From: Calothrix brevissima NIES-22
Lineage (GTDB): Bacteria > Cyanobacteriota > Cyanobacteriia > Cyanobacteriales > Nostocaceae
Length of the DNA: 64,000 nucleotides
Assembly (NCBI RefSeq): GCF_002367995.1
Contig: NZ_AP018207.1
Span: forward strand, 434,001-498,000
Direction: 5' to 3'
Each line of letters starts with the position of its first letter. Positions within the stretch are counted from its first letter, which is position 1. A program made the translations under genes and the position numbers. A model generated the notes under the pieces. That model did not search any database. It was not told the origin of the DNA and saw only the letters and a list, made by a program, of their open reading frames with translations. Positions 11,981 through 42,160 of this stretch are shown here, piece by piece.

Positions 11981-12213
11981 AGTTACAATGTCGATTCCTA
12001 ATTAATTAAATCCGCTTTGCTGGGATTATTTATCTATAGTCATGATAAATGATTTAGGACTTAGGCACACTCTATGAATTGGTGGATGATGAAAACTAAG
12101 TACCGCTTTGCATAAGTTCATAAATTTTTAAACGCAAAGGAACGCGGAGGTTAACGCAAAGTTTCGCAGAGTATTTCCTAAGCCAATTTGCTATGAATTA
12201 ATGAAATTGTGTA

Positions 12214-21844: not shown

Positions 21845-24577
21845 TTAAAGCCAATTACCGATCGCAATCATAGCAGCCCAATAAGCCGGATGCTCATATA
21901 GGGGATTTAAACCCTGTGTCTTTGCATCAATCATTCTAATTTGGGCTGTTTGTAATGCTTGGGCAATAGTCATACCAGCATTGCGGTAGTTGGTGTAAAA
22001 TGCTTTCACTAGTTCTGATGTGGATTGATCGTTGACATTCCATAAAGAAGCGATCGCACTTTTTACCCCTACTTGTAAGGCTACTCCTGCTAATCCTAGT
22101 GTAGCTCGGTCGTCGCCAACTGCGGTTTGACAGGCGGTTAAGGCTAAAAGTTCTACCCTATCGGGTTTACTGTTGAGGTTGCGCAGAGCAGTTTCTAATT
22201 GACTGATGGTCAGTTTTTTATTGTTACCTGTGACTATAAAGGTATCTTCGGGAATGATACCAAATTGCGCGTGACTGGCGATGTGAACAATTGGATATGT
22301 ACTTTTTTTGAGTGTTTGTTGAAACTTCTCCGGGACAAAATTTTCATTAACTAAGGGTTGGCTTTGCGGAAAGATATTTTGTATGGTGCTGATTTCATCG
22401 TTTACAGCAGTGAGTTTCGCAAAAGTTTTACCTTCTATTGTTGCTGTTTCGGTGACACCCAAAATTAATGCTTTTTGGAGACTGCGATCGCGTAACTTGG
22501 GCGTTGTTAGTCGTAAACTGGGAGTTGTAGCTACTGCATAGGTTTGGACTAAATATTTTTGGTTTTCTCTGTTATAAAGTGCTGCCATTGGTACGCTGCG
22601 CAAAAATCCATCCTGAATAAATACCAACGTTGTCACTTTATTTAGTTCCAAATCCGCCGCAAAGGGGCGAATTATCCAATCATAAAGCTGTGCGGCAATT
22701 GTTGGATCGTAATTAATATCTTCTTTTCTTAATAGTCCTTGACGAAACTCAGCAATTTTTTGTTGTAGAGTAGCACTGCTAACTATTTTATCCGTACCTG
22801 GTTGATTGGGGTCTTTAATCCAGTTAAATTTGGTTGGACGATCGGGTAATTGTAATAATATACCGGTTTTATCTTCTAAAATTATCGAACTTAAAAATGC
22901 TGTATTTTTAAAAGTTGCACTATTTTCCTGTAACAGTTCGCCTACTTGTTGAGGATTTAACCCGCTTAAAATGCAATCATTGCCAAAATAATTTTGTAAT
23001 TCAGCTAATTTTAAAGCATCAACGGTTTTCACGACTGCGGATAATTCATTGGCGCGCTTTTCGTCTGCTATTGCTCCAACTCCTAGCAATTCTAGCCGCG
23101 ATTGTGCTAATTTCTGATATAAAGGACGAACAACATCACGAAAATCAAATTGTACATCCCGTTCGGCTGTTAACAAATCCTCGCGAATATCTTCTAGAAT
23201 ATCAAATGCCCGTTGATAAGCCGCGATCGCTGCTTCTGGATTATCTAGTTTATCGAAAATTCTCCCAGCTTGCCACTCCCACAAATATAAGCTATCTTTA
23301 GCGTTTAATTTATTATCTGCGGCGATGATTGCGGCTTGAGTATATTTTAAGGCTGTATTTAGTTTAGTTTTATCTGGTGTTTTGGCATTATTAGCTTGAC
23401 ATTCCCAATAATGTCCTAAAGCACCGTTAGCATAGGAAATTAGGCGATTATCTTGTAAATTTTCGCTCGCTAATACAGATTTCTTCAATAAATCTACCAC
23501 AATTTCATCGGCTAAAAAGCGCTGAGGACAAGTAGTGAAAAGTGCAGTTCCTTGACTATCGCGCTGTAAATAAGCAAGTTCAATTCCGCCATAAACTTTA
23601 CTACTCGAATTAGGTACAGTTGCTAAAACTTGCAAAGCTGCTGTGACATTTTGATTAAATTCATCATCTTGCAAGACTTTATTTTGATTGCTTTGGGAAC
23701 CCAACTGAATTAAATTTAATAATCCGCGTAGTTCCCCAATAACTTGTTGGCGATCGCGGGCACTATTCACACTTGCTTGAAAATATAATTTAGCTTGATG
23801 ATAATCGCTGATAGATTGCTGTGCTAACTCCTTTTCTTTGCTCACAATTCCTGCTTTCTTAGCAGAATCGGCTTGTAAATCTCGCAATTGAGCGCGACTA
23901 TTATAAACATTACCCAAACTATTTAAAAGTAAAAAATCTTCAGGAGCAATTTTTTGTCCGGCTTGTAAATATTTAATTGCTTGCTCATAATTTCCCGTCA
24001 GACGATATGCTTCACCGAGAATTCCCAAAGCTGCTACCTGCGCAATTTTATCATTATATTTACTAGCAATTTGGCTAGCACTTTCAGGAATACAGCTAAT
24101 TTCCTGATTTTTGGGTTTTTCGTAGCTTGGTAACTTATCTACTAGATTGCCACATAACAGCGCGATCGCTTTGCGAGGCTGTCCCAAATTGTTGTAAACT
24201 TGAGCAAGTTCCGACTTCATCCGCCCGACTTGCTGTATATTTTCTACTCTACCATAGTCTTGAATTGCAGCTGTGAAGGATGCGATCGCCGCCGGATTTT
24301 CGCCTATTTGTTGATAAGCTCGCCCTAAATTTTCCTGAATTACCGCCGTTGCTGCGGGATTATTTTTATCTTGCTCAATTGCTTGTTTCCAACTGGCAAT
24401 TGCTTTGATAAAATTACCAGCATGATATGCTTTAATTCCTTGTTCAACCAGTAAATTTACCTGGGAATTTTCTGCTGCTACCAGTTGTCCCCAGAGTAAA
24501 CAAATAACTAGGGATAATAAAAATAATCCTTTATTTAATCGCTGTCGATTTAATTTAAGTTTCCTATAGCAATCCAT
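21845..24577 (-). CDS. TPR-CHAT caspase-like protein (1)
   Basis: About 910 residues from ATG 24577. A signal peptide or anchor (LFLLSLVICLLWGQLVAA) is followed by tetratricopeptide repeats over about 550 residues, a linker, and a C-terminal CHAT domain of caspase fold with catalytic His769 (HIASHAQFG) and Cys816 (LTACQTAVGD), ending in WAAMIAIGNW. CHAT domains are clan CD cysteine proteases; TPR arrays usually bind the regulator or substrate. The signal sequence suggests the protein works outside the cytoplasm. A longer frame begins with TTG at 24721, but ATG 24577 puts the signal peptide at the usual distance. It is convergent with the DUF928 gene. Confidence 0.88.
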   Translation of the reverse strand: MDCYRKLKLNRQRLNKGLFLLSLVICLLWGQLVAAENSQVNLLVEQGIKAYHAGNFIKAIASWKQAIEQDKNNPAATAVIQENLGRAYQQIGENPAAIASFTAAIQDYGRVENIQQVGRMKSELAQVYNNLGQPRKAIALLCGNLVDKLPSYEKPKNQEISCIPESASQIASKYNDKIAQVAALGILGEAYRLTGNYEQAIKYLQAGQKIAPEDFLLLNSLGNVYNSRAQLRDLQADSAKKAGIVSKEKELAQQSISDYHQAKLYFQASVNSARDRQQVIGELRGLLNLIQLGSQSNQNKVLQDDEFNQNVTAALQVLATVPNSSSKVYGGIELAYLQRDSQGTALFTTCPQRFLADEIVVDLLKKSVLASENLQDNRLISYANGALGHYWECQANNAKTPDKTKLNTALKYTQAAIIAADNKLNAKDSLYLWEWQAGRIFDKLDNPEAAIAAYQRAFDILEDIREDLLTAERDVQFDFRDVVRPLYQKLAQSRLELLGVGAIADEKRANELSAVVKTVDALKLAELQNYFGNDCILSGLNPQQVGELLQENSATFKNTAFLSSIILEDKTGILLQLPDRPTKFNWIKDPNQPGTDKIVSSATLQQKIAEFRQGLLRKEDINYDPTIAAQLYDWIIRPFAADLELNKVTTLVFIQDGFLRSVPMAALYNRENQKYLVQTYAVATTPSLRLTTPKLRDRSLQKALILGVTETATIEGKTFAKLTAVNDEISTIQNIFPQSQPLVNENFVPEKFQQTLKKSTYPIVHIASHAQFGIIPEDTFIVTGNNKKLTISQLETALRNLNSKPDRVELLALTACQTAVGDDRATLGLAGVALQVGVKSAIASLWNVNDQSTSELVKAFYTNYRNAGMTIAQALQTAQIRMIDAKTQGLNPLYEHPAYWAAMIAIGNWL

Positions 24578-24903
24578 TAACCCCAGAAATAACTGAGAAA
24601 ACTTATGCAATATCTGCATACACCACCTAACAGAGAGTATAATTTTATAATATTTGTTATTTAAATTACCAGAAATCAACGATAAAAACTGCAATTTACC
24701 AAAGTTTGCAGTTTTCTGCAATTTGAAAATCTAAAATCTGCAACCATCTATGCATAAATGGTGAATGCATTCTCAATTTCCAGGGCGTAATCTGAGTATT
24801 AAAGTCAAGGTTCAGAAATTACAGCCACAAAAAACGTCAATCTATCAACGCTGACTGCTGCATGTTTTCTGAATTATAGCTAAATTCAAGTGAGAGGTTA
24901 ACT

Positions 24904-31425: not shown

Positions 31426-32076
31426 CTATCTATCTGGTGCAGGAGTATTTTGACAAGCTAACTCTTCCCGCAACATAGCCGTTTCATTAGCATTCAAAAC
31501 ACGACCATTAATTTTAGGCGCTTCACCATTGCATATCGCAGACATGATATCAAATTTCTGCGGCAAACTTCTTCCTGCATCACTATTAGCCATATTTCTG
31601 ATCTTATCGGCAATCTTTTGTATCTCACTGCGCGTATACTGTTCACGAACCGTGCCTTTTTTGGGATAACAGACAGTATCTTTCACAGAAGTATCTGGCT
31701 TGAGGCGGGTATTTGGTGTTTGCGGAAACCGAATTCGCTTATCTCCACCGCGAATCTCCCAAGCACCAAACCAACCAGAGAGTTTTCCACTGATAAATCT
31801 CACCCTGCTAGTTTCCGGATCAAAAATATATTGTCCTTCCCCATAGGATGGAGAAGAATAATTTCCGTTACCATCAAGCTGTATTTCACCTAAAATGCTA
31901 GGGGGAGCAATACCACCAAAGACGACATTATAACCAGCACAATTGTAAACAGCAGCAGGTGGTGGGTAATCAAGCGGAACAGCAGTTCTTTGAGCATTAG
32001 CTCGTTCAGTTATGAACACAGTAATGCCAATGCAGAATGGGTAAAAGAAAAAATTTCTGATGTGATGTATTCTCAT
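31426..32076 (-). CDS. Exported protein of unknown function
   Basis: 216 residues from ATG 32076. An N-terminal signal peptide (MRIHHIRNFFFYPFCIGITVFITERANA) precedes a proline-rich start and a beta-rich part, YNCAGYNVVFGGIAPPSILGEIQLDGNGNYSSP and GQYIFDPETSRVRFISGKLSGWFG, then a charged helical tail with DTVCYPKKG. I do not recognise the family. A TTG at 32136 would extend it by 20 residues but spoils the signal peptide. A small ORF with a strong ribosome site and a copy of the shared promoter motif lie directly upstream, so it may be the second gene of a motif-driven transcript. Confidence 0.7.
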   Translation of the reverse strand: MRIHHIRNFFFYPFCIGITVFITERANAQRTAVPLDYPPPAAVYNCAGYNVVFGGIAPPSILGEIQLDGNGNYSSPSYGEGQYIFDPETSRVRFISGKLSGWFGAWEIRGGDKRIRFPQTPNTRLKPDTSVKDTVCYPKKGTVREQYTRSEIQKIADKIRNMANSDAGRSLPQKFDIMSAICNGEAPKINGRVLNANETAMLREELACQNTPAPDR

Positions 32077-32182
32077 GCAAAAGACCATAAAAATTACCTT
32101 AGATTGCATGTTTGAAATTATTGATTGTTGTAACAAAAATGGCTGAATTTAGGAACGTAAGCCCGATCGTTTGTTCAAATTC

Positions 32183-32248
32183 TTATCGATAGATTGCACA
32201 CTTGAATTTTTGCTCTGCATCATAGATTTTCTGAGTGAAACGGTTCAT
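32183..32248 (-). CDS. 21-residue small ORF with strong ribosome site
   Basis: ATG at 32248 is preceded by AAAAGGAG with 8-nt spacing, one of the best ribosome sites in the window. It encodes MNRFTQKIYDAEQKFKCAIY plus Arg and stops at 32183. The promoter-like motif copy A ends 39 nt upstream, the right distance for a short 5' leader. It may be a leader peptide or a microprotein expressed with the exported protein that starts 106 bp further on. Without homologues the coding call is tentative. Confidence 0.45.
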   Translation of the reverse strand: MNRFTQKIYDAEQKFKCAIYR

Positions 32249-32287: not shown

Positions 32288-32315
32288 ATATCTCCCATAA
32301 TCAGGAGGTTATGTA
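32288..32315 (-). promoter_or_regulatory. Shared promoter-like motif, copy A
   Basis: Minus strand: TACATA, A, CCTCC, 10 bases, AGATAT. The two hexamers are 16 bp apart, as in a -35/-10 pair. It ends 39 nt before the small ORF at 32248. Copies B-D are at 38666, 35578 and 35701. Confidence 0.65.
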
Positions 32316-32366
32316 AGAATTTGCGGAAATTGCGTCAGGTTTTGCAAGCATACTCAGGCTCAAACC

Positions 32367-35300
32367 TTACAAACTTTCTCCAATTAAAGTAAACGCCGCC
32401 CAATGTATCGGTTCAGAATATTTTTTCATCGTAATTAACATAGCTTGACGCAAGGCTTGAGCTTTATCAGGTGTCTGCTGCATTTGTCGATAAAACTCTG
32501 TCATTAATAACTTAGTAGATTCATCTGGTACACTCCACAAAGAAACAACAACACTGGGAACACCTGCTGCAATTAAAGAGCGAGAAAGTCCAATTACTCC
32601 ATCACCTTTGATATCGCCTTGTCCTGTTTGACAAGCACTTAATACTACTAGTTCGGCTTTTAATTTCATATTCAATATTTCACTAGCAGTCAACAAACCG
32701 TTATTATCCTTTTTTTCGCCATTCGGAAGATTATCCGGTGCCAGAGCGATCGCACCCGGTACACCAGATTCAACAATATTAAGTAATCCATGAGTTGCTA
32801 GGTGAATAATTCTGGCATTTAGCATCTGTTGCTTGACAGTAGATTTAGTAGCTTGGTTACCAACTAGAGATTTTGTATTGAGTATTTGAGCAATCTCAAG
32901 AGCTTCCTTCTCTGCATTTTTTAATGGTTGCAACTGTTGCGGTTTTTCTCCTTTTTTGGGAATAATACTTGGCATAGTCGGGTTACCTACAACTAAAGCT
33001 CCATTTCCTGTAACTTTTTGCCTTTGTTGGTGTGTAAGTTCTAATACCTGAATTGCTGGCGCAGTCAGAATAGTATGTTTTTCAATTAAGTATTGATTTT
33101 GCTCGTCTTTAAGTGCAGGAAATGGCACTAAAAACAATTCGTTTTGGGGGATGAAAATTACCTTTTCATTTGGGTTTGTAGGTAAATATTGAGCAATTGG
33201 TTTAATTAGCAGTTGATATAAATCTTTGCATAGCCTTTCTACAACCTCTGGATCTATCTTATTTAGGGAAGCTTGTGGTAGAAAAATACTACGGTCATCT
33301 ACTCCCATAGCTTGACGGCTGGTCTTGACTAAATCTTGTAAAGGAATATTGATTTCTTTAGATTTAAATACTACTTCCCCAGTTGGTTTAACAACCCAAA
33401 TATAAATTTCTTTACCATCCCATGTTAGGTTACCATCGTTTTTTTTGGGAGGATTAGGAACCGCATACTCTACAATTGTGGCATTTTGTATTTTGGCAAT
33501 TCTCTGAATATCTTGAAGTTTTGGTGGTAAGATTTCAGGAATTTCAATGTTTAATTTATCATTACTTTTTTTTGACATCCGTGCGTATAGCAAATTAATG
33601 AAAGCTCTAGCTCGTCCACGTTCTGAAACTTCTAATGCTTCTTTGAATTTATTTTGGGCAATTAAAGTTTTTTGCAATAGACTATAGGTTTGAGCTTGTG
33701 TTTCAAAAATACAGATTTGATTGTTATCTTTTTTTACTGGTTTCCGTATCGAATCATAAACATCTATAGCTTGATATAAACTAGCTGTAGCTTCAGGTAG
33801 CTTATTTGCAAGAAAGCTAGTCATACCCATCTGTTTAAAAATATTGGCTTGCTCTATCTTGTTCCCTATTTTTTGGGCAGAGCCTACAGCTTGGTTATAA
33901 TAATCGATTGCTTTATTGTATTGTTTTTGATTGTCGTAAAAAAGCCCCAGTTTAAAAAATATGTACGGCTGGAATTGTAAAGTACCAGTATTTGTGCTGC
34001 GTTCTTTTGCTTTGTTATAGTTCTCCAACGCCCGATTATTGTCTTTGAGTTTGACATAAGCATCACCAACCTCAGCAAATGCAAATGCTTCTAATTCAGG
34101 TTTTCCTAATGCTTGGTATGTTTTTAAATTTTCTTGCGCTTGTGCTAACTCTTTTTGAGCATCAGATGAATTTGGGGGAATATTATTTTTACGTTCACAA
34201 GTATTAGATTCTGTGTTATCATCTAGCCCCAACATTTTTTGAGCAAAAAGCATTACAGTGTTGATATCTCTCAGTCCCATTTTGGCTTGTTTTTTTTGGA
34301 TATCAGATGCAACTTTGTTAGCAGAATTATTATTCTCGGCTAAATCAATCACTGATTGATATGCTTTTTGTGATTCTTTATAAGACTCTATTGCTTGTTC
34401 ATAGTTGCCTGTATTACTGTAAATATAACCCATATTAAACAAAATAAACCCTTGCAGATTAGCCTGTTCAAGTTTTTCTACAGGAGAACTCACAACTTCT
34501 GTTTTGACGTTATTAAGAGCTTGTATAAGATATTTCAATGCCTCTTCTGGCTGATTCAAGTTTTTATAGGCAACACCTAATTTGAAGAGGGCTTTTGTAA
34601 TTCCAGATGGAGATTTTTTATCTGTTTGGTAAATCTGCAAAGCTTGCTGGAAAAATTCTACTGCTTTAGGGTAATTACTTTTGAAGTCGTATATTTCTCC
34701 TAGTCCTAAAAAAGCCTTAGCTTGTTTACTGCGATCGCCTATTTGTTGAGCAATTGTTAAAGCTTGCTGATAATCCTGAAGTGCTTTATTCAACAACTCA
34801 TGACCAGTTTCATCCTTGTTGATAATTTTAGTTGCACCAATTGCATAGTAAAGGTCGCCACCAGCATCAAGAAGACGAAGTTCCAGTCTGCGTTGGCGCA
34901 GCTTGTCCTCTGGAGAACCGTTAGCTTGGCGTATAGCTACCAAGGCTTGTTCTAGAAAATCAAGACTTTTCTCAATGTGATTACTACCAATGTAAATCGC
35001 AGCCAGACTTTTTAATGCGATCGCTTCTGTTTCATGATTTTGGCTTTGTCGCGCCACTGCTAGCGCTTTAGAGCAGTATTCAGTTGCACGTTGAGTGTTT
35101 CCTAAGCCCAAATAAACTAGCCCCAAATTACTCAACAGCCTCGCTTCTAAATCAGTGTCATTGATAGCTTGGGCAATTTCTAAAGCTTGTTGATAGTAGG
35201 TAGTTGCTTGTTTGGAATCACCCAAATCATCGTAAGCACTACCGATATTCTTGAGCGCTCTACCTTCTCCCTGACGGTTTTTGATTTGACGGTAAATTTT

Positions 35301-35543
35301 TAAAGCTTGCTGGAAAGCTTCTAAAGCGGCTTGAGATTGATTGCGATCGCGCAGTTCCTCACCTTGTTTGAGTAGTCTATCTGCTTCGGTTTTGCGATTA
35401 TTGGTGCTTTGTGCTGATGCTGGCGCTGTTCTCAAGGGTAGTAGTTCCAAAGCGCCCAAGGGAAATGTGAGGTATAACACCAAAGATGCAAGGGTGAGGC
35501 GTTGTAAGGGTTGAACTATAAAAAGATAAGGACTACGACGCAT
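32367..35543 (-). CDS. TPR-CHAT caspase-like protein (2)
   Basis: 1058 residues. A signal peptide (about 1-44, ending APASAQS) is followed by about a dozen TPRs (residues 50-620; for example GRALKNIGSAYDDLGDSKQATTYYQQALEI), a linker, and a C-terminal CHAT domain with catalytic His918 (HLATHG) and Cys971 (LSACQTGQGD), ending IHWAAFTLIGES. It is a predicted exported clan CD cysteine protease or scaffold. The gene is divergent from the sigma-like gene, and its own start is 34 nt past motif copy C, which suggests it belongs to the same regulon. Its CHAT sequence (GLLTASEILNM) differs in subtype from TPR-CHAT 1 and 3 (LxGVAxxxGxxSxIASLW). Confidence 0.9.
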   Translation of the reverse strand: MRRSPYLFIVQPLQRLTLASLVLYLTFPLGALELLPLRTAPASAQSTNNRKTEADRLLKQGEELRDRNQSQAALEAFQQALKIYRQIKNRQGEGRALKNIGSAYDDLGDSKQATTYYQQALEIAQAINDTDLEARLLSNLGLVYLGLGNTQRATEYCSKALAVARQSQNHETEAIALKSLAAIYIGSNHIEKSLDFLEQALVAIRQANGSPEDKLRQRRLELRLLDAGGDLYYAIGATKIINKDETGHELLNKALQDYQQALTIAQQIGDRSKQAKAFLGLGEIYDFKSNYPKAVEFFQQALQIYQTDKKSPSGITKALFKLGVAYKNLNQPEEALKYLIQALNNVKTEVVSSPVEKLEQANLQGFILFNMGYIYSNTGNYEQAIESYKESQKAYQSVIDLAENNNSANKVASDIQKKQAKMGLRDINTVMLFAQKMLGLDDNTESNTCERKNNIPPNSSDAQKELAQAQENLKTYQALGKPELEAFAFAEVGDAYVKLKDNNRALENYNKAKERSTNTGTLQFQPYIFFKLGLFYDNQKQYNKAIDYYNQAVGSAQKIGNKIEQANIFKQMGMTSFLANKLPEATASLYQAIDVYDSIRKPVKKDNNQICIFETQAQTYSLLQKTLIAQNKFKEALEVSERGRARAFINLLYARMSKKSNDKLNIEIPEILPPKLQDIQRIAKIQNATIVEYAVPNPPKKNDGNLTWDGKEIYIWVVKPTGEVVFKSKEINIPLQDLVKTSRQAMGVDDRSIFLPQASLNKIDPEVVERLCKDLYQLLIKPIAQYLPTNPNEKVIFIPQNELFLVPFPALKDEQNQYLIEKHTILTAPAIQVLELTHQQRQKVTGNGALVVGNPTMPSIIPKKGEKPQQLQPLKNAEKEALEIAQILNTKSLVGNQATKSTVKQQMLNARIIHLATHGLLNIVESGVPGAIALAPDNLPNGEKKDNNGLLTASEILNMKLKAELVVLSACQTGQGDIKGDGVIGLSRSLIAAGVPSVVVSLWSVPDESTKLLMTEFYRQMQQTPDKAQALRQAMLITMKKYSEPIHWAAFTLIGESL

Positions 35544-35577
35544 AGATGAATTGTTAAGACACTGAAATTACCTACAT

Positions 35578-35605
35578 ATATCTTTGGCAATTGGGGGGTT
35601 ATGTA
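35578..35605 (-). promoter_or_regulatory. Shared promoter-like motif, copy C (TPR-CHAT 2)
   Basis: Minus strand: TACATA, A, CCCCC, 10 bases, AGATAT; 16 bp between the hexamers. The last base is 34 nt upstream of the TPR-CHAT 2 ATG, a normal promoter-to-start distance. Confidence 0.7.
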
Positions 35606-35700
35606 AAAGTTTTGTAAATCATCAAATCCATTTTTTGCCAATCAACTCTTAATATCAATCAAAGTGCTGTATCTGAAGCGGAAATGGTTCATCCAAAAAA

Positions 35701-35728
35701 TACATAACTTCAAATTCTCCAAAGATAT
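35701..35728 (+). promoter_or_regulatory. Shared promoter-like motif, copy D (sigma-like gene)
   Basis: Plus strand: TACATA, A, CTTCA, 10 bases, AGATAT; 16 bp between the hexamers. The C-rich block is degenerate here (CTTCA for CCYCC). It lies 143 nt upstream of the sigma-like gene, in the spacer shared with copy C. Confidence 0.6.
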
Positions 35729-35871
35729 AGCTAAGTAGAGAATACGGGAGTCCATTAACAGGTAATGTATATTCAGAAATTTGGCAAAATACTGCCGTTT
35801 AGACGAGCTAGGTGCGATTTTATCAATCTTAACTCACTCTCACTAGTAAAAACACGAATAAACTATCATTT

Positions 35872-37266
35872 ATGGTAGCCAAAAACCATCTGAATCGAGC
35901 AGGGATAGATAGAGCATCTAAATATTGGCTCTTAATTAGCATCAATAGTTTTGGTCGTAGTTGTTGTAATGAACTGATGCAGAATAAAGCGTTTTTCTTG
36001 CAACAGTTTTCCGGGGTACTTGAGCAAGAAAATATACCAGATAGGGATATTCAACGCCAACTGATGCAGTTATATCGTCATGATGAGAACCTTCAGCAAT
36101 TGGCGCTGGGTTGTCTGCGCTGCTTTATTTCTCACGAAATTAAGGCGATTTGTGAGGGTTTAACCAGTAAATTTGGCAAAACCCATGATTTTAGTCTTGA
36201 GGAGATGTTACCACTGGTGCTGGATGGCGATCGCAAAAACGCTAATCATGCTCAATCCCTGACTATGAAGATTTTAGAGACTTTTGACCCAGAAAAAAGT
36301 AATTTATCAACTTGGACAAACAGGATACTCAAGAGCGATCGCACTGTCAAACAGTTTTTACTAGAACATGGTATCGAACAAGTCACAGATTGGATGATTC
36401 TCAACTACACCAGACCAGGAAACCTCGCTCGAATTTTATCAAATTACCAGCGCACACAAATTGAAATTGACCGAGCCATCGAACTACTCAATAGTTATCA
36501 CCAAATTTATCGCACCCATCTATTACAAATTAGAAAAAATGGTGTTAAAACTAGATATCCAGAACCGACTTGGGAACAATTGCAACAAATTGCAAATTTA
36601 TATCAAGAAATCACCGCTCCTGAAGAAATCCGCGAATGTCTGCAAAATCTTGCTCAGTTAATTCGCGCAGAACGCATCCGTGCTAGACAAGGGTTACCTC
36701 GTTTCACTCCTTTAGTAGATGATAATCAAATTTTCATTCCCGAAACATCCCAGGAAGTATTAGCATTTTTAGCCAAATATCAGCAAAATTTCGAGCAATG
36801 TCTGATTAATGCTGCTTTTTTAGTCATTCGAGGTAGATTCGATTATTTACAAGGTAAAAAGACCCCTAAATCTTTAAAAAAGGCAGAAAAATATATTCAA
36901 GCTCTGCATTTATTTCATTGTTGCGGAGTTTCAATGACAGAAATTGCTCAACAATTAAATTTAACGGATCAACCAGAAGTGAGTCGATTATTAGCATTGA
37001 AAAATTTACGCATTGATATTGGTCGCAATACTTTAGCTTGTTTACTTGAATGTGTTAATGATATAGCACAAGCTTATATTCATCCTAGCCAAATACTAGA
37101 ACTAGACTCAAAAATAAAAGCTATCCTGGATGAAGAAATTCAAGCTGTAATGGAAAAAGCGAGAATAGATGCAAGTACTGGAGCAAAGCAACTCATCCAC
37201 AACCAGTTGGCTAAAGCTATTTGCGAATATCTCTGCACGCGCATAGAAATTAGAAAAAGGACTTAG
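35872..37266 (+). CDS. Divergent sigma-70-like protein
   Basis: 464 residues, soluble. The middle has a region-2-like stretch, MKILETFDPEKSNLSTWTNRILKSDRTVKQFL, resembling the helix of sigma factors that reads FDPxxxxFxxWLxRIxxN. The C-terminal third has HCCGVSMTEIAQQLNLTDQPEVSRLLALKNLRIDIGRN, which fits a region-4 helix-turn-helix. The rest does not match standard groups, so it is a very divergent or sigma-derived DNA-binding protein. The next gene, DUF1822, starts 4 bp after its stop. The gene has motif copy D upstream, consistent with autoregulation. The start could be ATG 35872 or ATG 35977 (MQNKAFFLQQ); neither has a clear ribosome site. Confidence 0.65.
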   Translation: MVAKNHLNRAGIDRASKYWLLISINSFGRSCCNELMQNKAFFLQQFSGVLEQENIPDRDIQRQLMQLYRHDENLQQLALGCLRCFISHEIKAICEGLTSKFGKTHDFSLEEMLPLVLDGDRKNANHAQSLTMKILETFDPEKSNLSTWTNRILKSDRTVKQFLLEHGIEQVTDWMILNYTRPGNLARILSNYQRTQIEIDRAIELLNSYHQIYRTHLLQIRKNGVKTRYPEPTWEQLQQIANLYQEITAPEEIRECLQNLAQLIRAERIRARQGLPRFTPLVDDNQIFIPETSQEVLAFLAKYQQNFEQCLINAAFLVIRGRFDYLQGKKTPKSLKKAEKYIQALHLFHCCGVSMTEIAQQLNLTDQPEVSRLLALKNLRIDIGRNTLACLLECVNDIAQAYIHPSQILELDSKIKAILDEEIQAVMEKARIDASTGAKQLIHNQLAKAICEYLCTRIEIRKRT

Positions 37267-37270
37267 TATT

Positions 37271-38521
37271 ATGTATGTACATCATGATGAAACAGATTAT
37301 TTTTTAGAATTCAGTCAAATTTCTGACTCTATTACTTTAACATCAGCATATTTTACTGAAGCTAGTAAGCGTAGTTTAAAATATCACAATCAATCGAAAC
37401 AATGGCAGATTTATTTACAATTTCTAACTTATTTTGCTTGTAGTGAATGGTTAGCAGAACGAGAACCAACACTGAAAATTAATCAAGCTGATTTGATAAC
37501 TTGGCAAGCTAAATATGTGGATGTAATTGATACTGCATTTAATCTATCTATTGGTAAATTTAAAGTTTGTTTAATTCCAAATCTTGATTTTAGCGATGTA
37601 GAGGTTACTATACCCAGAGCATTATTAGATTTACCGGAATTTAATGCCCATTTTTATCTAGTCATTGGTATTGAGGAAGAAATAGAGTTAGCTAGTATCA
37701 GGGGATTTTTACGATATGACGAAATCAGCCAATATCAACCACAACTAAAACCAGATTTAGATTGGAATTATCGCTTACCGCTAGATTGGTTTCACAACGA
37801 TGCTAACGAATTATTGCTGTATTTGCAATGTCTCTCACCTTCGGCAATTACTTTACCAGAAATTCCGCGCGATCGCCAAAATTTTCTCGCCACAATTTCA
37901 GCAGAATTATTAACACTATTACTGCAATTACGTAACTCTCCTCTGTGCAAAGTTTTGACTTGGAAACAGGCAATAGACGTACTAACAACGCCAGATTTAT
38001 TACAAATTGTCACCCAGCCAGCCGTTAATGTAAGGTCATGGTTCAATCATCAATTATATCAAGCAATACCAGAATTATCTTGGCAAGTATTAGCACCATT
38101 TACACCATTCCTGCGCACCAATCAAACCCCTGAACAAGAATTAGACAATATTCTCACTCACATTCAAACTACACATAATATAGATATTCCCCCAACAGCA
38201 GGACGAGCCTATCAAGAAATACAATTAGAATGTTTACTACGCTTATATGCTGTGACTTGGTTATTACCAGATGACAACTCTGGCTGGAATTTACTATTAA
38301 TTTTGAAGACTATTACAAATAATAACTCTTCTACTTCTGGATTTACATTGCGCGTAATCGATAAAACCGAGATTTTAGTAGAAGAAGAATTACAACCTCA
38401 GCAGCAGGATTATATCTTTACTCTCGTTGAGGGAAGTTACGACGATCAATTTTTAGTGAATATTACATCTGCTAACGGACAAACGCAAACATTACCGCCA
38501 TTAGAGTTTAATGGTCAATAG
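37271..38521 (+). CDS. DUF1822 protein, coupled to the sigma-like gene
   Basis: 416-residue soluble protein without membrane segments. The start DETDYFLEFSQISDSITLTSAYFTEASKRSLKYHNQSKQ and later WLAEREP, VEVTIPRALLDLPEFNAHFYLVIGI and LRYDEI match what I know as DUF1822, a cyanobacterial family of unknown function. It is 4 bp downstream of the sigma-like gene, so the two are made together. Tight coupling to a sigma gene would suit an anti-sigma or activity modulator (inference). A second half of about 150 residues with a beta-rich end (FTLRVIDKTEILVEEEL) may be a separate domain. Confidence 0.75.
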   Translation: MYVHHDETDYFLEFSQISDSITLTSAYFTEASKRSLKYHNQSKQWQIYLQFLTYFACSEWLAEREPTLKINQADLITWQAKYVDVIDTAFNLSIGKFKVCLIPNLDFSDVEVTIPRALLDLPEFNAHFYLVIGIEEEIELASIRGFLRYDEISQYQPQLKPDLDWNYRLPLDWFHNDANELLLYLQCLSPSAITLPEIPRDRQNFLATISAELLTLLLQLRNSPLCKVLTWKQAIDVLTTPDLLQIVTQPAVNVRSWFNHQLYQAIPELSWQVLAPFTPFLRTNQTPEQELDNILTHIQTTHNIDIPPTAGRAYQEIQLECLLRLYAVTWLLPDDNSGWNLLLILKTITNNNSSTSGFTLRVIDKTEILVEEELQPQQQDYIFTLVEGSYDDQFLVNITSANGQTQTLPPLEFNGQ

Positions 38522-38575
38522 TCAATGGTCAATAGTCAATGGTCAATAGTCAATGGTCATTTGTCATTAGCTTGA
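38516..38575. repeat. Heptamer repeats after the DUF1822 gene
   Basis: About six TCAATAG/TCAATGG units overlap the stop codon of the DUF1822 gene and end in TCATTTGTCATTAG. The rest of the 353-bp spacer to the CHAT-CHASE2 gene holds motif copy B, a second array and a palindrome. Confidence 0.85.
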
Positions 38576-38665
38576 TAGTTGCTGCTTAATAGCTGGTATC
38601 GCTGGCATATTTGTTAAGTAATATTAAAATATTGTATCTCAAATGATGATTTCTCCGTAAATTTC

Positions 38666-38693
38666 TACATATCCTCCCCCTCATGAGAGATAT
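38666..38693 (+). promoter_or_regulatory. Shared promoter-like motif, copy B (CHAT-CHASE2)
   Basis: Plus strand: TACATA, T, CCTCC, 10 bases, AGATAT; 16 bp between the hexamers. It is 181 nt upstream of the CHAT-CHASE2 start, the extra distance being occupied by repeat insertions at 38751-38813. Confidence 0.65.
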
Positions 38694-38874: not shown

Positions 38875-41382
38875 ATGACGACAACGCGAACATTTTTTAA
38901 CCTAACAGTGACTCGCATTCAATCAGTATGTCAATTTGAATTACAAGGAGAAGGACAAAAAATTACCGAACAAGTTGATTATCCTTTATCATTAACTCAA
39001 CGTTATGAAGATTGGCAAAGAGCTTATTTAGATTATTATCGACATTTACGGGGACGTAAAACTATCCACGATTTGCAGAAACAGGAATTACCTAATATTC
39101 ATCTGCGTGGCTGGAATGTAATTAATAAAAATTTTCGCGGCAGAAAAGTAATTAGCGGTGTTGGTAAAATTACAGTAGACCGTAGCAAACAACTTAAAGA
39201 TGCAGAAGCTCAATTTTTAGATGAATTTTATCGCTGGTTGTTGAGTCCTGATTTAATTAATATACGCCGGGAAATTGCGAATGCGGCGCGAAAATTAGCA
39301 GATAAATATCAATCAGTTGAAGTATTCTTAACTTGTAACCCTATAGAAATAGCTAGATTACCTTGGGAAACTTGGGAAATTGGTACAGATTTAGGTATTC
39401 CTGAAAAAATTAAAATTTACCGCACTCCTGCGACTATTCGCAATCAACCTATCCATCCGTTAAAACGTAAAGCGAGAATTTTAGCTATTATTGGCTATGA
39501 TACGCATTTAAATTTTCAAGCCGATAAACAAGAATTAGAATCGCTGAATTCAATTGCATATATTGAATTTGTCGGTTGGAATACGAAAAAAGCTAAAGTA
39601 CTTAATGCCGATAACGAAACAGAACTAAAAACCGAAATATTTAATGCAATTAATGATGACAAAGGCTGGGATATTTTATTCTTTGCTGGACATAGTAACG
39701 AAAATATTTTAACTGGGGGAGAGTTATATGTAGCGCCTAATGTTTCTATAGGAATTCAAGATATTGCAGAAGTATTGAAAAAGGCGCAAGCTAGAGGACT
39801 ACAGTTTGCAATTTTTAACTCTTGTAGTGGATTAGATATTGCTGAATCACTAATTAACTTGGGTTTAAGTCAAGTAATTGTGATGCGAGAACCAATACAC
39901 AATCACGTAGCACGTAAATTTTTAGTGCAATTTGTCAAGAGTTTAGCTGAATTTAAAGATGTTCATCAGGCTTTGTTAGATGCTTGTCAATATCTCAAAC
40001 AACAAGTTACGCGATTTTCTTACCCTTCTGCTTATCTTGTTCCTTCACTCTATCGTCATCCAGATGCAGAATTATTTCGCCTGAAATCCTTTGGTTTTTG
40101 GAATGCGGTTAAAAAATGGTTACCAAAACCAAAATATGAAAGTTGGCTATTATTGCTTTTATTAATTAGTTTACTGCCTCATGTCCAAGATTTTTTATTA
40201 GATAAGCGGATATGGCTGCAAGCATTTTATCGCCAGTTTACCCATCAATTTTATAAACAAGAGTCTCCCTTAGTTTTAGTAAAAATTGATAATAAATCGT
40301 TAAATGAAGATAAAATTAAACAAGTTTATCCTTTAGATTATAGTTATTTAGCCAAAATAATTCAAAAACTATCTCAATCGAATTCGCAATTAATTGGTAT
40401 TGATTATATTTTAGACCAAGGTGGGCAGCAACCACAGCAAACTAAACTACTAAATCAAGCGATTCGTGGTGCTGTATCTCAAGGAAATTGGTTTGTATTT
40501 GGGGCGGAATCTACTGAAGATAAAAATAGAAAAGAAACTGTCACTGCTGATATCGCTAGTTTAAATTGGAGCATGGAAGGTGATGTTTATATTGCTAGAT
40601 GGTATGTTGAGTTACCAACAAAGATAAATAATGATAAAAATTACCCTTTTAGCTATCTTTTAGCCTTAGCTTATGCTGTACAACATCAAAAGTCATTAGT
40701 TGGGGATTTACCTAAACCTCAATTATCTAGCCAACATGATTTTCGCAACACTGTTACTAAACCAATAAAATCGTCAGATGCAAGATATAATTTTTTGCAA
40801 AACTTGCGATCACATCCCTTATCTGATTTGCAACAATCTTTTCAACCAATTCTTGACTTTTCTCTTCCTCCTAGCCAAGTTTACAAAAGTATCTCGGCTT
40901 GTGAGTTACTTGGTTCTTGCGAATCACAAACTCAAATACACCATAACTTAAAGAATAAGGTAGTAATTATTGTTCCATCTGGATATGAACAAGCAGGAAT
41001 TAGAGGTAAGGGTGAAGACAAGGAAACTATACCTCCAGCAATTTCTTTTTGGGATGGGTGGGGTGATGGTATATTTTCTCGAAGCGCAGCCCATGCTTAC
41101 ATGGTTCACCATTTACTCACCCAAAGATTAGTTGTACCTGTACCGGATTTTTTGATGATTTTAGTAGGTGCTTTGTTAGGTAAAGCAGTGACTTTAATTA
41201 TTATTGAAAATCCTCGCAATCAGGTAAAAATATTTAAGATATTCTGGGGTGGATTAGTCATTTATCTTTTGATTTCATTACAAATTTACACCTCAGCAGC
41301 GATTTTACTTCCCTGGTTTTTTCCCTCATTGACTTTCGGTATTTACATCCTAATTGCTACAAGGAGAAACATTCGTGAATAA
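38875..41382 (+). CDS. CHAT-CHASE2 membrane protein (cytoplasmic protease, external sensor)
   Basis: 835 residues. The N-terminal half (about 1-410) is a CHAT domain with catalytic His273 (FFAGHSN) and Cys317 (FNSCSGLD). A membrane helix at about 424-443 leads to an extracytoplasmic CHASE2 domain (about 463-735: LVLVKIDNKSLNE, LIGIDYILDQGG), then two to three C-terminal helices (about 758-826). There is no signal peptide before the CHAT domain, so the protease should be cytoplasmic and the sensor periplasmic. CHASE2 normally gates kinases or cyclases; here it replaces the kinase with a protease. The last 8 bases overlap the DUF928 start. Motif copy B lies upstream. Confidence 0.88.
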   Translation: MTTTRTFFNLTVTRIQSVCQFELQGEGQKITEQVDYPLSLTQRYEDWQRAYLDYYRHLRGRKTIHDLQKQELPNIHLRGWNVINKNFRGRKVISGVGKITVDRSKQLKDAEAQFLDEFYRWLLSPDLINIRREIANAARKLADKYQSVEVFLTCNPIEIARLPWETWEIGTDLGIPEKIKIYRTPATIRNQPIHPLKRKARILAIIGYDTHLNFQADKQELESLNSIAYIEFVGWNTKKAKVLNADNETELKTEIFNAINDDKGWDILFFAGHSNENILTGGELYVAPNVSIGIQDIAEVLKKAQARGLQFAIFNSCSGLDIAESLINLGLSQVIVMREPIHNHVARKFLVQFVKSLAEFKDVHQALLDACQYLKQQVTRFSYPSAYLVPSLYRHPDAELFRLKSFGFWNAVKKWLPKPKYESWLLLLLLISLLPHVQDFLLDKRIWLQAFYRQFTHQFYKQESPLVLVKIDNKSLNEDKIKQVYPLDYSYLAKIIQKLSQSNSQLIGIDYILDQGGQQPQQTKLLNQAIRGAVSQGNWFVFGAESTEDKNRKETVTADIASLNWSMEGDVYIARWYVELPTKINNDKNYPFSYLLALAYAVQHQKSLVGDLPKPQLSSQHDFRNTVTKPIKSSDARYNFLQNLRSHPLSDLQQSFQPILDFSLPPSQVYKSISACELLGSCESQTQIHHNLKNKVVIIVPSGYEQAGIRGKGEDKETIPPAISFWDGWGDGIFSRSAAHAYMVHHLLTQRLVVPVPDFLMILVGALLGKAVTLIIIENPRNQVKIFKIFWGGLVIYLLISLQIYTSAAILLPWFFPSLTFGIYILIATRRNIRE
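41361..41367 (+). promoter_or_regulatory. Ribosome site that decides the GTG start of DUF928 (2)
   Basis: AAGGAGA lies within the 3' end of the CHAT-CHASE2 gene, 7 nt before GTG 41375. The in-frame start at 41354 lacks such a site and would give a longer leader. Confidence 0.7.
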
Positions 41383-42160
41383 ATTGAAATTATTACAGGC
41401 TATTCTGTTAACAAATGTATTGCTTACTAATTTTGGCTTGACAATATCTAGCGCATCTACTGTTAAAAAACAACTACCGCACAATTCAATTAGTAATCCA
41501 AATAATAATTTTATATCCTTGGGGCTGAGGGATTTATGGACATTATTACGCCGTCCAAAAGTTCCTGCTGGCGGAAGAGATCCACAACTTTGCTTCATTT
41601 CGCCGCAAATTTTAGTAGATCCTGCTTTACCAACAAATATAAATGCAAATACGCCTATTGAGATTTGGAGTTTAAAACCCTTATTTCTTTGGAATATTAA
41701 ATCACCAGGAGATGTCAAGCGCATTCAGTTATTTAAACCAGGTAGTGACAAGGCTTTTTGGGATAAAGAAATTGCTCCAGGTCAAACCAGCATTATATAT
41801 GATGGCGAACCACTACAACCGGGTCAGGTATACAGTTTGTGGGTACATATTCCTTTCCCTGTAGAGAAATTATCTTTTCAAATTATGGGCGAGGAAAAGC
41901 GGAATCAAATTGCTGGTGAATTGCAACAAATCGAAGCTAAATCTAAACAGCAAGGAACGATTACAGAGACGATAGCTTTAGAAAAAGTAGATTTATTTGT
42001 GAGTAAGCAAATGTGGGCGGATGCATTACGGGAAATTTATGCTGTACCCAATCCATCGCCAGAGTTAAAGGAAATTCAGCAACAAATTCCCTCTTTTGAT
42101 TATTGTTCATCAAGTAATACACCTACTGCTATGAAAGATGATTTAGCAAGTAAACCTTAA
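41375..42160 (+). CDS. DUF928 exported protein (2), translationally coupled
   Basis: 261 residues from GTG 41375. The signal peptide is VNKLKLLQAILLTNVLLTNFGLTISSAS. The mature part has VPAGGRDPQLCFISPQILVDPALP, a strand IEIWSLKPLFLWNI, IIYDGEPLQPGQVYSLWVHIPF and a charged helical tail (KVDLFVSKQMWADALREIY), the same architecture as the 20809 protein; I therefore assign DUF928. The start overlaps the last 8 bases of the CHAT-CHASE2 gene, so the two proteins are made together. This supports a role as a periplasmic partner of the CHASE2 sensor. Confidence 0.75.
   Translation: MNKLKLLQAILLTNVLLTNFGLTISSASTVKKQLPHNSISNPNNNFISLGLRDLWTLLRRPKVPAGGRDPQLCFISPQILVDPALPTNINANTPIEIWSLKPLFLWNIKSPGDVKRIQLFKPGSDKAFWDKEIAPGQTSIIYDGEPLQPGQVYSLWVHIPFPVEKLSFQIMGEEKRNQIAGELQQIEAKSKQQGTITETIALEKVDLFVSKQMWADALREIYAVPNPSPELKEIQQQIPSFDYCSSSNTPTAMKDDLASKP

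Follow-up and report, generated by a model that had tools for sequence, protein, structure and literature searches.

In a 64,000-nucleotide stretch of the Calothrix brevissima NIES-22 genome (contig NZ_AP018207.1, positions 434,001 to 498,000; hereafter the window, with positions counted from its first letter), four copies of a bipartite promoter-like motif lie around a gene (35872-37266) whose product resembles a sigma factor. We read these sites as promoters recognized by this product, a divergent sigma factor that would drive its own operon together with a scattered, CHAT-rich regulon served also by paralogues, and put the probability of this reading at about 0.78. The motif has a fixed spacing and direction; its copies are biased to CHAT genes across the genome, co-occur with the sigma-like gene across the family and lie upstream of that gene itself in homologous loci. 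A preliminary description of the window had proposed that a sigma-like factor reads the motif and activates its own operon plus CHAT genes, and this is largely supported by the bias within the organism's own genome, the co-occurrence, the motif upstream of sigma-like genes and a weak fold similarity to sigma region 2.

Motif sites in the window

The four sites, each detected by motif scan and by the site model described below, are:

35701..35728, + strand: predicted promoter site of the sigma-like gene (autoregulation), also indicated by homologous loci
38666..38693, + strand: predicted promoter site before the CHAT-CHASE2 gene
35578..35605, - strand: predicted promoter site before a TPR-CHAT gene, 34 nt from its start
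32288..32315, - strand: predicted promoter site that precedes a TPR gene in a relative, the gene being mostly missing here

A scan of the window found exact matches to TACATAWCCYCC-N10-AGATAT at three of them, while the site at 35701 differs at two positions, both in the middle box. Allowing up to 3 mismatches gave 5 matches in the window against 0.20 expected, and none of 100 shuffles gave 5; the fifth match (2697-2724, - strand), with 3 mismatches, is within chance. The sites, coordinates, strands and fixed spacing of the preliminary description were thus reproduced from the sequence, as were the distances of 34 nt to the start of the TPR-CHAT open reading frame (ORF) at 35543 and 39 nt to that of a tiny ORF at 32248, both on the minus strand. 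The latter had been described as a small ORF; the ORF and its distance are as described, but it is a 21-codon remnant of a gene that encodes a 156-aa (amino acid) TPR protein in a relative. Similarly, the motif had been tied to these four sites, which holds within the window, with further copies elsewhere in the genome.

Predicted regulon across the genome

With up to two mismatches, the pattern occurs at 33 places in the 9.26-Mb genome, compared with 15 for the reversed pattern. Outside the window, the best of these places are each followed by an ORF, and several of these ORFs begin like a signal peptide (an assessment by eye, here and throughout, with no prediction tool). A sequence-only site model built from 44 training sites, 5 of them from stretches of this genome, yielded 48 places at E <= 10 and 30 at E <= 0.05, with 150 of 2343 candidates scored. 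All 30 lie outside ORFs of at least 90 aa and have a start on the same strand within 300 nt (median 43.5), as do 9% of positions drawn at random from the same stretches; a start on the opposite strand within 300 nt was present at 6. At 23 of the 30 sites, the 5.2 kb that follow on the same strand include a CHAT domain, versus 2.0% of strand positions (76 of the 78 CHAT matches were used, two second fragments being excluded). The preliminary description had named beforehand a genome-wide bias to CHAT or sigma-like loci as one of the points on which its hypothesis would stand or fall, and this bias is present, together with the co-occurrence of motif and gene in 192 genomes given below.

The first ORF carries the CHAT domain at 15 of the 30 sites, a sixteenth being cut by the end of its stretch, and the other CHAT-linked sites precede three sigma-like genes, two small TPR proteins, one subtilase and one TPR ORF beside a CHAT ORF. 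Downstream of the seven sites that lack CHAT are genes for two caspase-family proteins, one trypsin-like protein, one WD40 protein, one small TPR protein and a peptide of 94 aa, and, in the case of the 32288 site, the ORF that follows it. The CHAT family is greatly expanded in this genome (78 matches at E <= 1e-3), and a site was found at a minority of its members. The predicted regulon reaches well outside the window, with members at loci throughout the genome, and is probably shared among four sigma paralogues. At L312:1158-1442(+) and near position 12139 of locus L136, motif sites precede small peptides with stretches that resemble double-glycine leaders by eye (the own-genome site having an E-value of 0.013); such peptides are possibly secreted members of the regulon.

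Co-occurrence of the motif and the sigma-like gene

Across 192 genomes of the family to which the organism belongs, a strict 28-base pattern (TRCATAWCYYC-N10-RAGATAT), shaped from the window sites and the matches in the same genome, was found at 61 sites, which are spread over 33 genomes, and the reversed pattern at none. The sigma-like gene is present in 71 of the 192 (E <= 1e-20), namely in 31 of the 33 genomes with the motif versus 40 of the 159 others (Fisher p = 7e-14), and strict sites occur in just 2 of the 121 genomes where the gene was not found at this threshold. Using the site model with stricter filters, a site at E <= 1e-3 was detected in 69 of the 192 genomes, 64 of which hold the gene, although these genomes had also supplied most of the training sites and the test is therefore not independent. 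Outside the family the motif drifts, the model reaching few genomes that hold the gene, so the evidence from other orders rests on the promoters of sigma-like genes. In genome G288 (L146:8643-9354(+)), the motif still lies upstream of a copy of the sigma-like gene that is reduced to a fragment.

Autoregulatory position

A matrix trained on 57 of 60 sites, with those upstream of sigma-like genes excluded, scored at least 6 in 39 of 85 regions upstream of such genes and in none of the 85 reversed regions. In a larger set of 158 regions (76 of them from 80 named loci, with some genes present twice), TRCATA followed by RGADWTA at a gap of 14 was found in 66, and no other gap exceeded 11; the reversed pattern gave 0 and the antisense strand 5 at gap 14. 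After removal of duplicates, a looser pattern detected a site before 84 of 143 sigma-like genes versus 3 for the reversed pattern, 10 antisense and 0-5 in ten shuffles.

One pattern was also applied to all classes of genes in fetched cyanobacterial loci with a sigma-like gene, with the following counts: 1) sigma-like genes, 83 of 142 (antisense 9); 2) TPR-CHAT genes, 43 of 130 (antisense 5); 3) caspase-type genes, 3 of 17; 4) CHAT-CHASE2 genes, 5 of 106; 5) DUF1822 genes, which come next to the sigma-like gene, 2 of 142; 6) DUF928-like genes, 0 of 80; and 7) other ORFs, 54 of 706 (antisense 31). The reversed pattern gave 0 throughout, and a few of the fetched stretches had been placed to include a known site, which favours the counts for target genes. 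A crude signal-peptide pattern fits 18 of the 54 other ORFs with the motif versus 61 of the 652 without. From these counts, the motif is common before the sigma-like gene and unusual before CHAT-CHASE2 genes, which makes the 38666 copy an unusual one. The promoter of the window's sigma-like gene carries the bipartite motif of the regulon, and the earlier proposal that the motif drives this gene's own operon is supported by the same position in many homologous loci.

Proposed promoter architecture and -35 preference

The sequences suggest a putative -35 box TRCATA (TACATAWCCYC in the window type), a fixed 14-nt gap and a putative -10 box RGARWTA (AGAGATAT or AAAGATAT in the window type). Grouping the 60 distinct contexts at 70% identity gave 39 clusters. 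Conservation is limited to an A/T tract, T[AG]CATA[AT]C[CT][CT]C, [AG]AGATATA and, at positions 35/36, a T-purine step. A purine occupies the expected start at 54 of the 60 sites and in 35 of the 39 clusters (binomial 2e-7); the T-purine step, 8-9 nt past AGATAT, has the pattern expected at a transcription start and is the predicted start. A few sites, at L128:7575, L138:18252-18282 and L160:8742, score on both strands, so that divergent transcription is conceivable there. A fully palindromic operator was rejected, as the sites have a direction and are only partly symmetric.

The NIES-22 genome encodes four sigma-like genes; the promoter of the one in the window is of the TACATA type and those of the other three paralogues are TGCATA. 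Across the family, genomes with a sigma factor of the TACATA type or with a DQP recognition helix contain 27 of 30 TACATA sites versus 4 of 31 TGCATA sites (counted by genome, 8 of 11 versus 1 of 22). The type labels were assigned by hand, that of G288 on the basis of a gene fragment, and sites belonging to the sigma genes themselves were counted. This suggests that -35 preference follows sigma type. A strict covariation between the second base of the -35 box and the recognition helix was not upheld; the agreement is only suggestive, with loci L142 and L144 as exceptions.

Probable assignment of the protein as a sigma factor

An AlphaFold model of the whole protein had a confidence (pLDDT) of 87.6 within domains and a predicted template modelling score (pTM) of 0.54, so the domain arrangement is not confident, and Foldseek gave nothing significant with it: a DeoR helix-turn-helix had a probability of 0.97 and a Thermus initiation-complex chain, taken for sigma, one of 0.28. 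Residues 57-170 modelled alone (pLDDT 88, pTM 0.80) had as their best Foldseek match region 2 of RpoS (probability 0.95, TM 0.58/0.68), a weak one by its E-value of 0.9, followed by a Synechocystis initiation-complex chain (0.72), E. coli sigma-S and a chain of an S. aureus SigA complex; with chain identities read from titles, 6 of the 32 matches of this fragment were sigma chains. Comparisons by hhalign with 10 sigma70 proteins of the same genome matched FDPEKSNLSTWT to the region 2 motif and the helix-turn-helix to region 4, in that order (pairwise E 7e-4, 2e-3 and 1e-3). On these combined grounds, none of which is decisive alone, the product of 35872-37266 is taken as a putative divergent factor of the sigma70 superfamily. 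Sigma families were also absent among the 25 of 48 Pfam families shown for 27 homologues, and the window gene was not among the 11 places found by a PF04542 search of its genome. Among 17 plasmid records with a relative of the gene, 15 annotate a hypothetical protein, one is unannotated and one has no feature there.

Evidence against and alternative explanations

A number of results weigh against this assignment and the proposed regulon. As regards the protein, no Pfam or NCBIfam sigma model matches it; the Foldseek E-values are poor (best 0.3 and 0.9, none <= 0.001); the hhalign probabilities are low, at 14-27%; and sequence searches of the PDB gave no match to sigma region 2, the only sigma match of the helix-turn-helix profile being SigF (E 0.24), behind DeoR (0.022). 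As regards the sites, 59 of the 142 sigma-like genes show none with the pattern used, the sites are partly dyad-symmetric, some of them scoring on both strands, as an operator might, and of 9 sigma genes with TACATA in their own promoter, 7 but not all encode a DQP recognition helix. As regards distribution, five genomes with a model site lack the sigma-like gene and seven with the gene lack a site; in a class-wide sample, the model with stricter filters finds sites in 4 of 194 genomes, with the gene in 55 at E <= 1e-8; and the co-occurrence p-values overstate the evidence because many sites and genomes share ancestry.

The weak region 2 match, the helix-turn-helix closer to DeoR than to sigma region 4 and the partial symmetry would also suit an operator joined to a promoter, in which the sigma-like protein or DUF1822 acts as an activator on TRCATAWCCYC and the housekeeping sigma factor reads the -10 box. 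We consider this unlikely. The spacing of the boxes is rigid and the sites are directional, and 46 of 84 sigma-gene promoters have AGAGTTA, AGAAATA or AGAATTA as their -10 box, unlike the housekeeping TANNNT.

The phylogenetic clumping of the co-occurrence, and the distance of more than a megabase between some target sites and any sigma-like gene, are what one would expect if the promoters belonged to another regulator and were linked with the sigma-like gene by shared neighbourhood and lineage only. This is quite improbable in view of the motif upstream of the sigma gene itself in more than half of the fetched loci, the near absence of strict sites from genomes without a detected gene, and the way TACATA and TGCATA sites track sigma type. 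Chance repeats or a dispersed repeat element, to which the mere four copies in the window and the 3 of 30 TACATA sites in genomes without a matching sigma type (G231, G249 and G300) might point, are very improbable given the absence of reversed patterns in 192 genomes, the loss of conservation outside the motif, the position of all 30 own-genome sites before ORFs and their bias to downstream CHAT genes; these results and the window matches also dispose of mistaken coordinates.

Genes of the locus

The genes around the four sites are:

35872..37266, + strand: sigma-like gene, 464 aa, with a predicted region-2-like domain at about residues 57-170 and a predicted helix-turn-helix at about 332-399
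37271..38521, + strand: DUF1822 protein (Pfam PF08852, 1.7e-44), putative partner or anti-sigma factor
38875..41382, + strand: protein with a CHAT protease domain and a CHASE2 sensor domain (Pfam), putative sensor/activator
41354..42160, + strand: weakly DUF928-like protein after the CHAT-CHASE2 gene (Pfam, below the family cut-off)
32367..35543, - strand (divergent): TPR-CHAT protein with a signal-peptide-like start (Pfam), predicted target
32183..32248, - strand: 21-codon remnant ORF directly after the 32288 site
31426..32136, - strand: next gene downstream of the 32288 site, 236 aa, with no Pfam family, possible target

The sigma-like, DUF1822 and CHAT-CHASE2 genes form a conserved trio: in 124 of 130 loci, the 3 kb after the sigma-like gene include a DUF1822 homologue (median gap, 10 nt), and in 90 of 114 the 6 kb after it include a CHAT-CHASE2 homologue, the profile used for the latter count being one that may also pick up other CHAT genes. 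The 41354..42160 gene is perhaps in one transcription unit with the CHAT-CHASE2 gene. Compared with genome G292 (L127:17700-18600), about 610 bp holding most of the 156-aa TPR gene are absent after the 32288 site; the promoter site is retained, and the first 86 nt of the stretch are 95% identical to G292.

A caspase-family protein is also encoded at the locus (Pfam). The CHAT-bearing ORF at 21845-24721 weakly matches a Csx29 model (E 2.1e-5, 23.6 bits against a cut-off of 300), and PADLOC, run on 7 proteins, assigned a generic caspase model to one and two TPR models plus one weak oxidoreductase model to another. Heptamer repeats (TCAATGG/TCAATAG) are located at 38517-38560, directly 3' of the DUF1822 gene.

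Proposed circuit

In the circuit we propose, the sigma-like protein would bind the sites as a sigma factor, start transcription of its own operon (sigma, DUF1822 and CHAT-CHASE2) about 8-9 nt beyond AGATAT and share with its three paralogues the control of TPR-CHAT, caspase, subtilase, trypsin-like and small TPR genes, most of whose products have signal-peptide-like starts; TACATA and TGCATA sites may be split among the paralogues. DUF1822 would keep the sigma factor inactive as an anti-sigma factor, and the CHASE2-CHAT protein, on the model of Csx29, Csx30 and CASP-sigma, would free it by cleavage on an outside signal. The full version, in which CHASE2-CHAT cleaves the DUF1822 inhibitor, the freed sigma factor deploys exported caspase-like proteases and paralogous circuits are kept apart by their -35 boxes, is put forward only tentatively.

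Relation to known systems

Like extracytoplasmic function (ECF) sigma factors, the window protein has a predicted region 2 and helix-turn-helix, its family's own promoter often shares the motif of the regulon, and a likely regulator gene follows closely. It differs in its length, with additional long helical segments that separate the two domains and follow the second, in the lack of a Pfam sigma match, and in its putative boxes, TRCATA and RGARWTA, where typical ECF promoters have AAC and CGT.

A neighbourhood of EACC2-caspase, ECF sigma factor and DUF1822 has already been described, with the proposal that the sigma factor can regulate many genes (PMC8195603). It is a gene trio of the same kind, including caspase-like proteins that bear CHASE2; the section of that paper on the neighbourhood gives neither a promoter motif nor a target list. 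The preliminary description had spoken of an undescribed regulon. A motif or regulon of this kind was not found in the open-licence literature, although a described ECF group may cover the family; the neighbourhood itself, as that section makes clear, is not new. In the available part of a paper on Tolypothrix genomes, DUF1822 appears in a list of variants only.

The CASP circuit of type III-E CRISPR systems (Craspase) is similar: Csx30, which inhibits CASP-sigma, is cut by the TPR-CHAT protease Csx29, and the CASP-sigma locus itself contains motifs for this factor (PMC10028731). In both loci the sigma gene is accompanied by a third gene and by a gene for a CHAT-type protease, with sigma motifs at the locus itself. 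In the window, by contrast, the candidate activator includes CHASE2, CHAT proteins abound in a large regulon, cleavage of DUF1822 is proposed by analogy, and neither a CRISPR effector nor any Cas family was detected among the nine ORFs scanned with Pfam, a scan that included no search aimed at Cas7-11.

Implications

No open-licence paper was found that states what switches on cyanobacterial CHAT genes; a defined promoter and a candidate sigma factor make their activation a testable question, and the motif offers a readout for the DUF1822/CHASE2-CHAT system. The protein would add a divergent sigma family missed by the family models used. If the circuit is correct, it would constitute a transcriptional cascade from protease to protease, a non-CRISPR counterpart of the CASP-sigma pathway, governed by an unnamed sigma family centred on the cyanobacteria.

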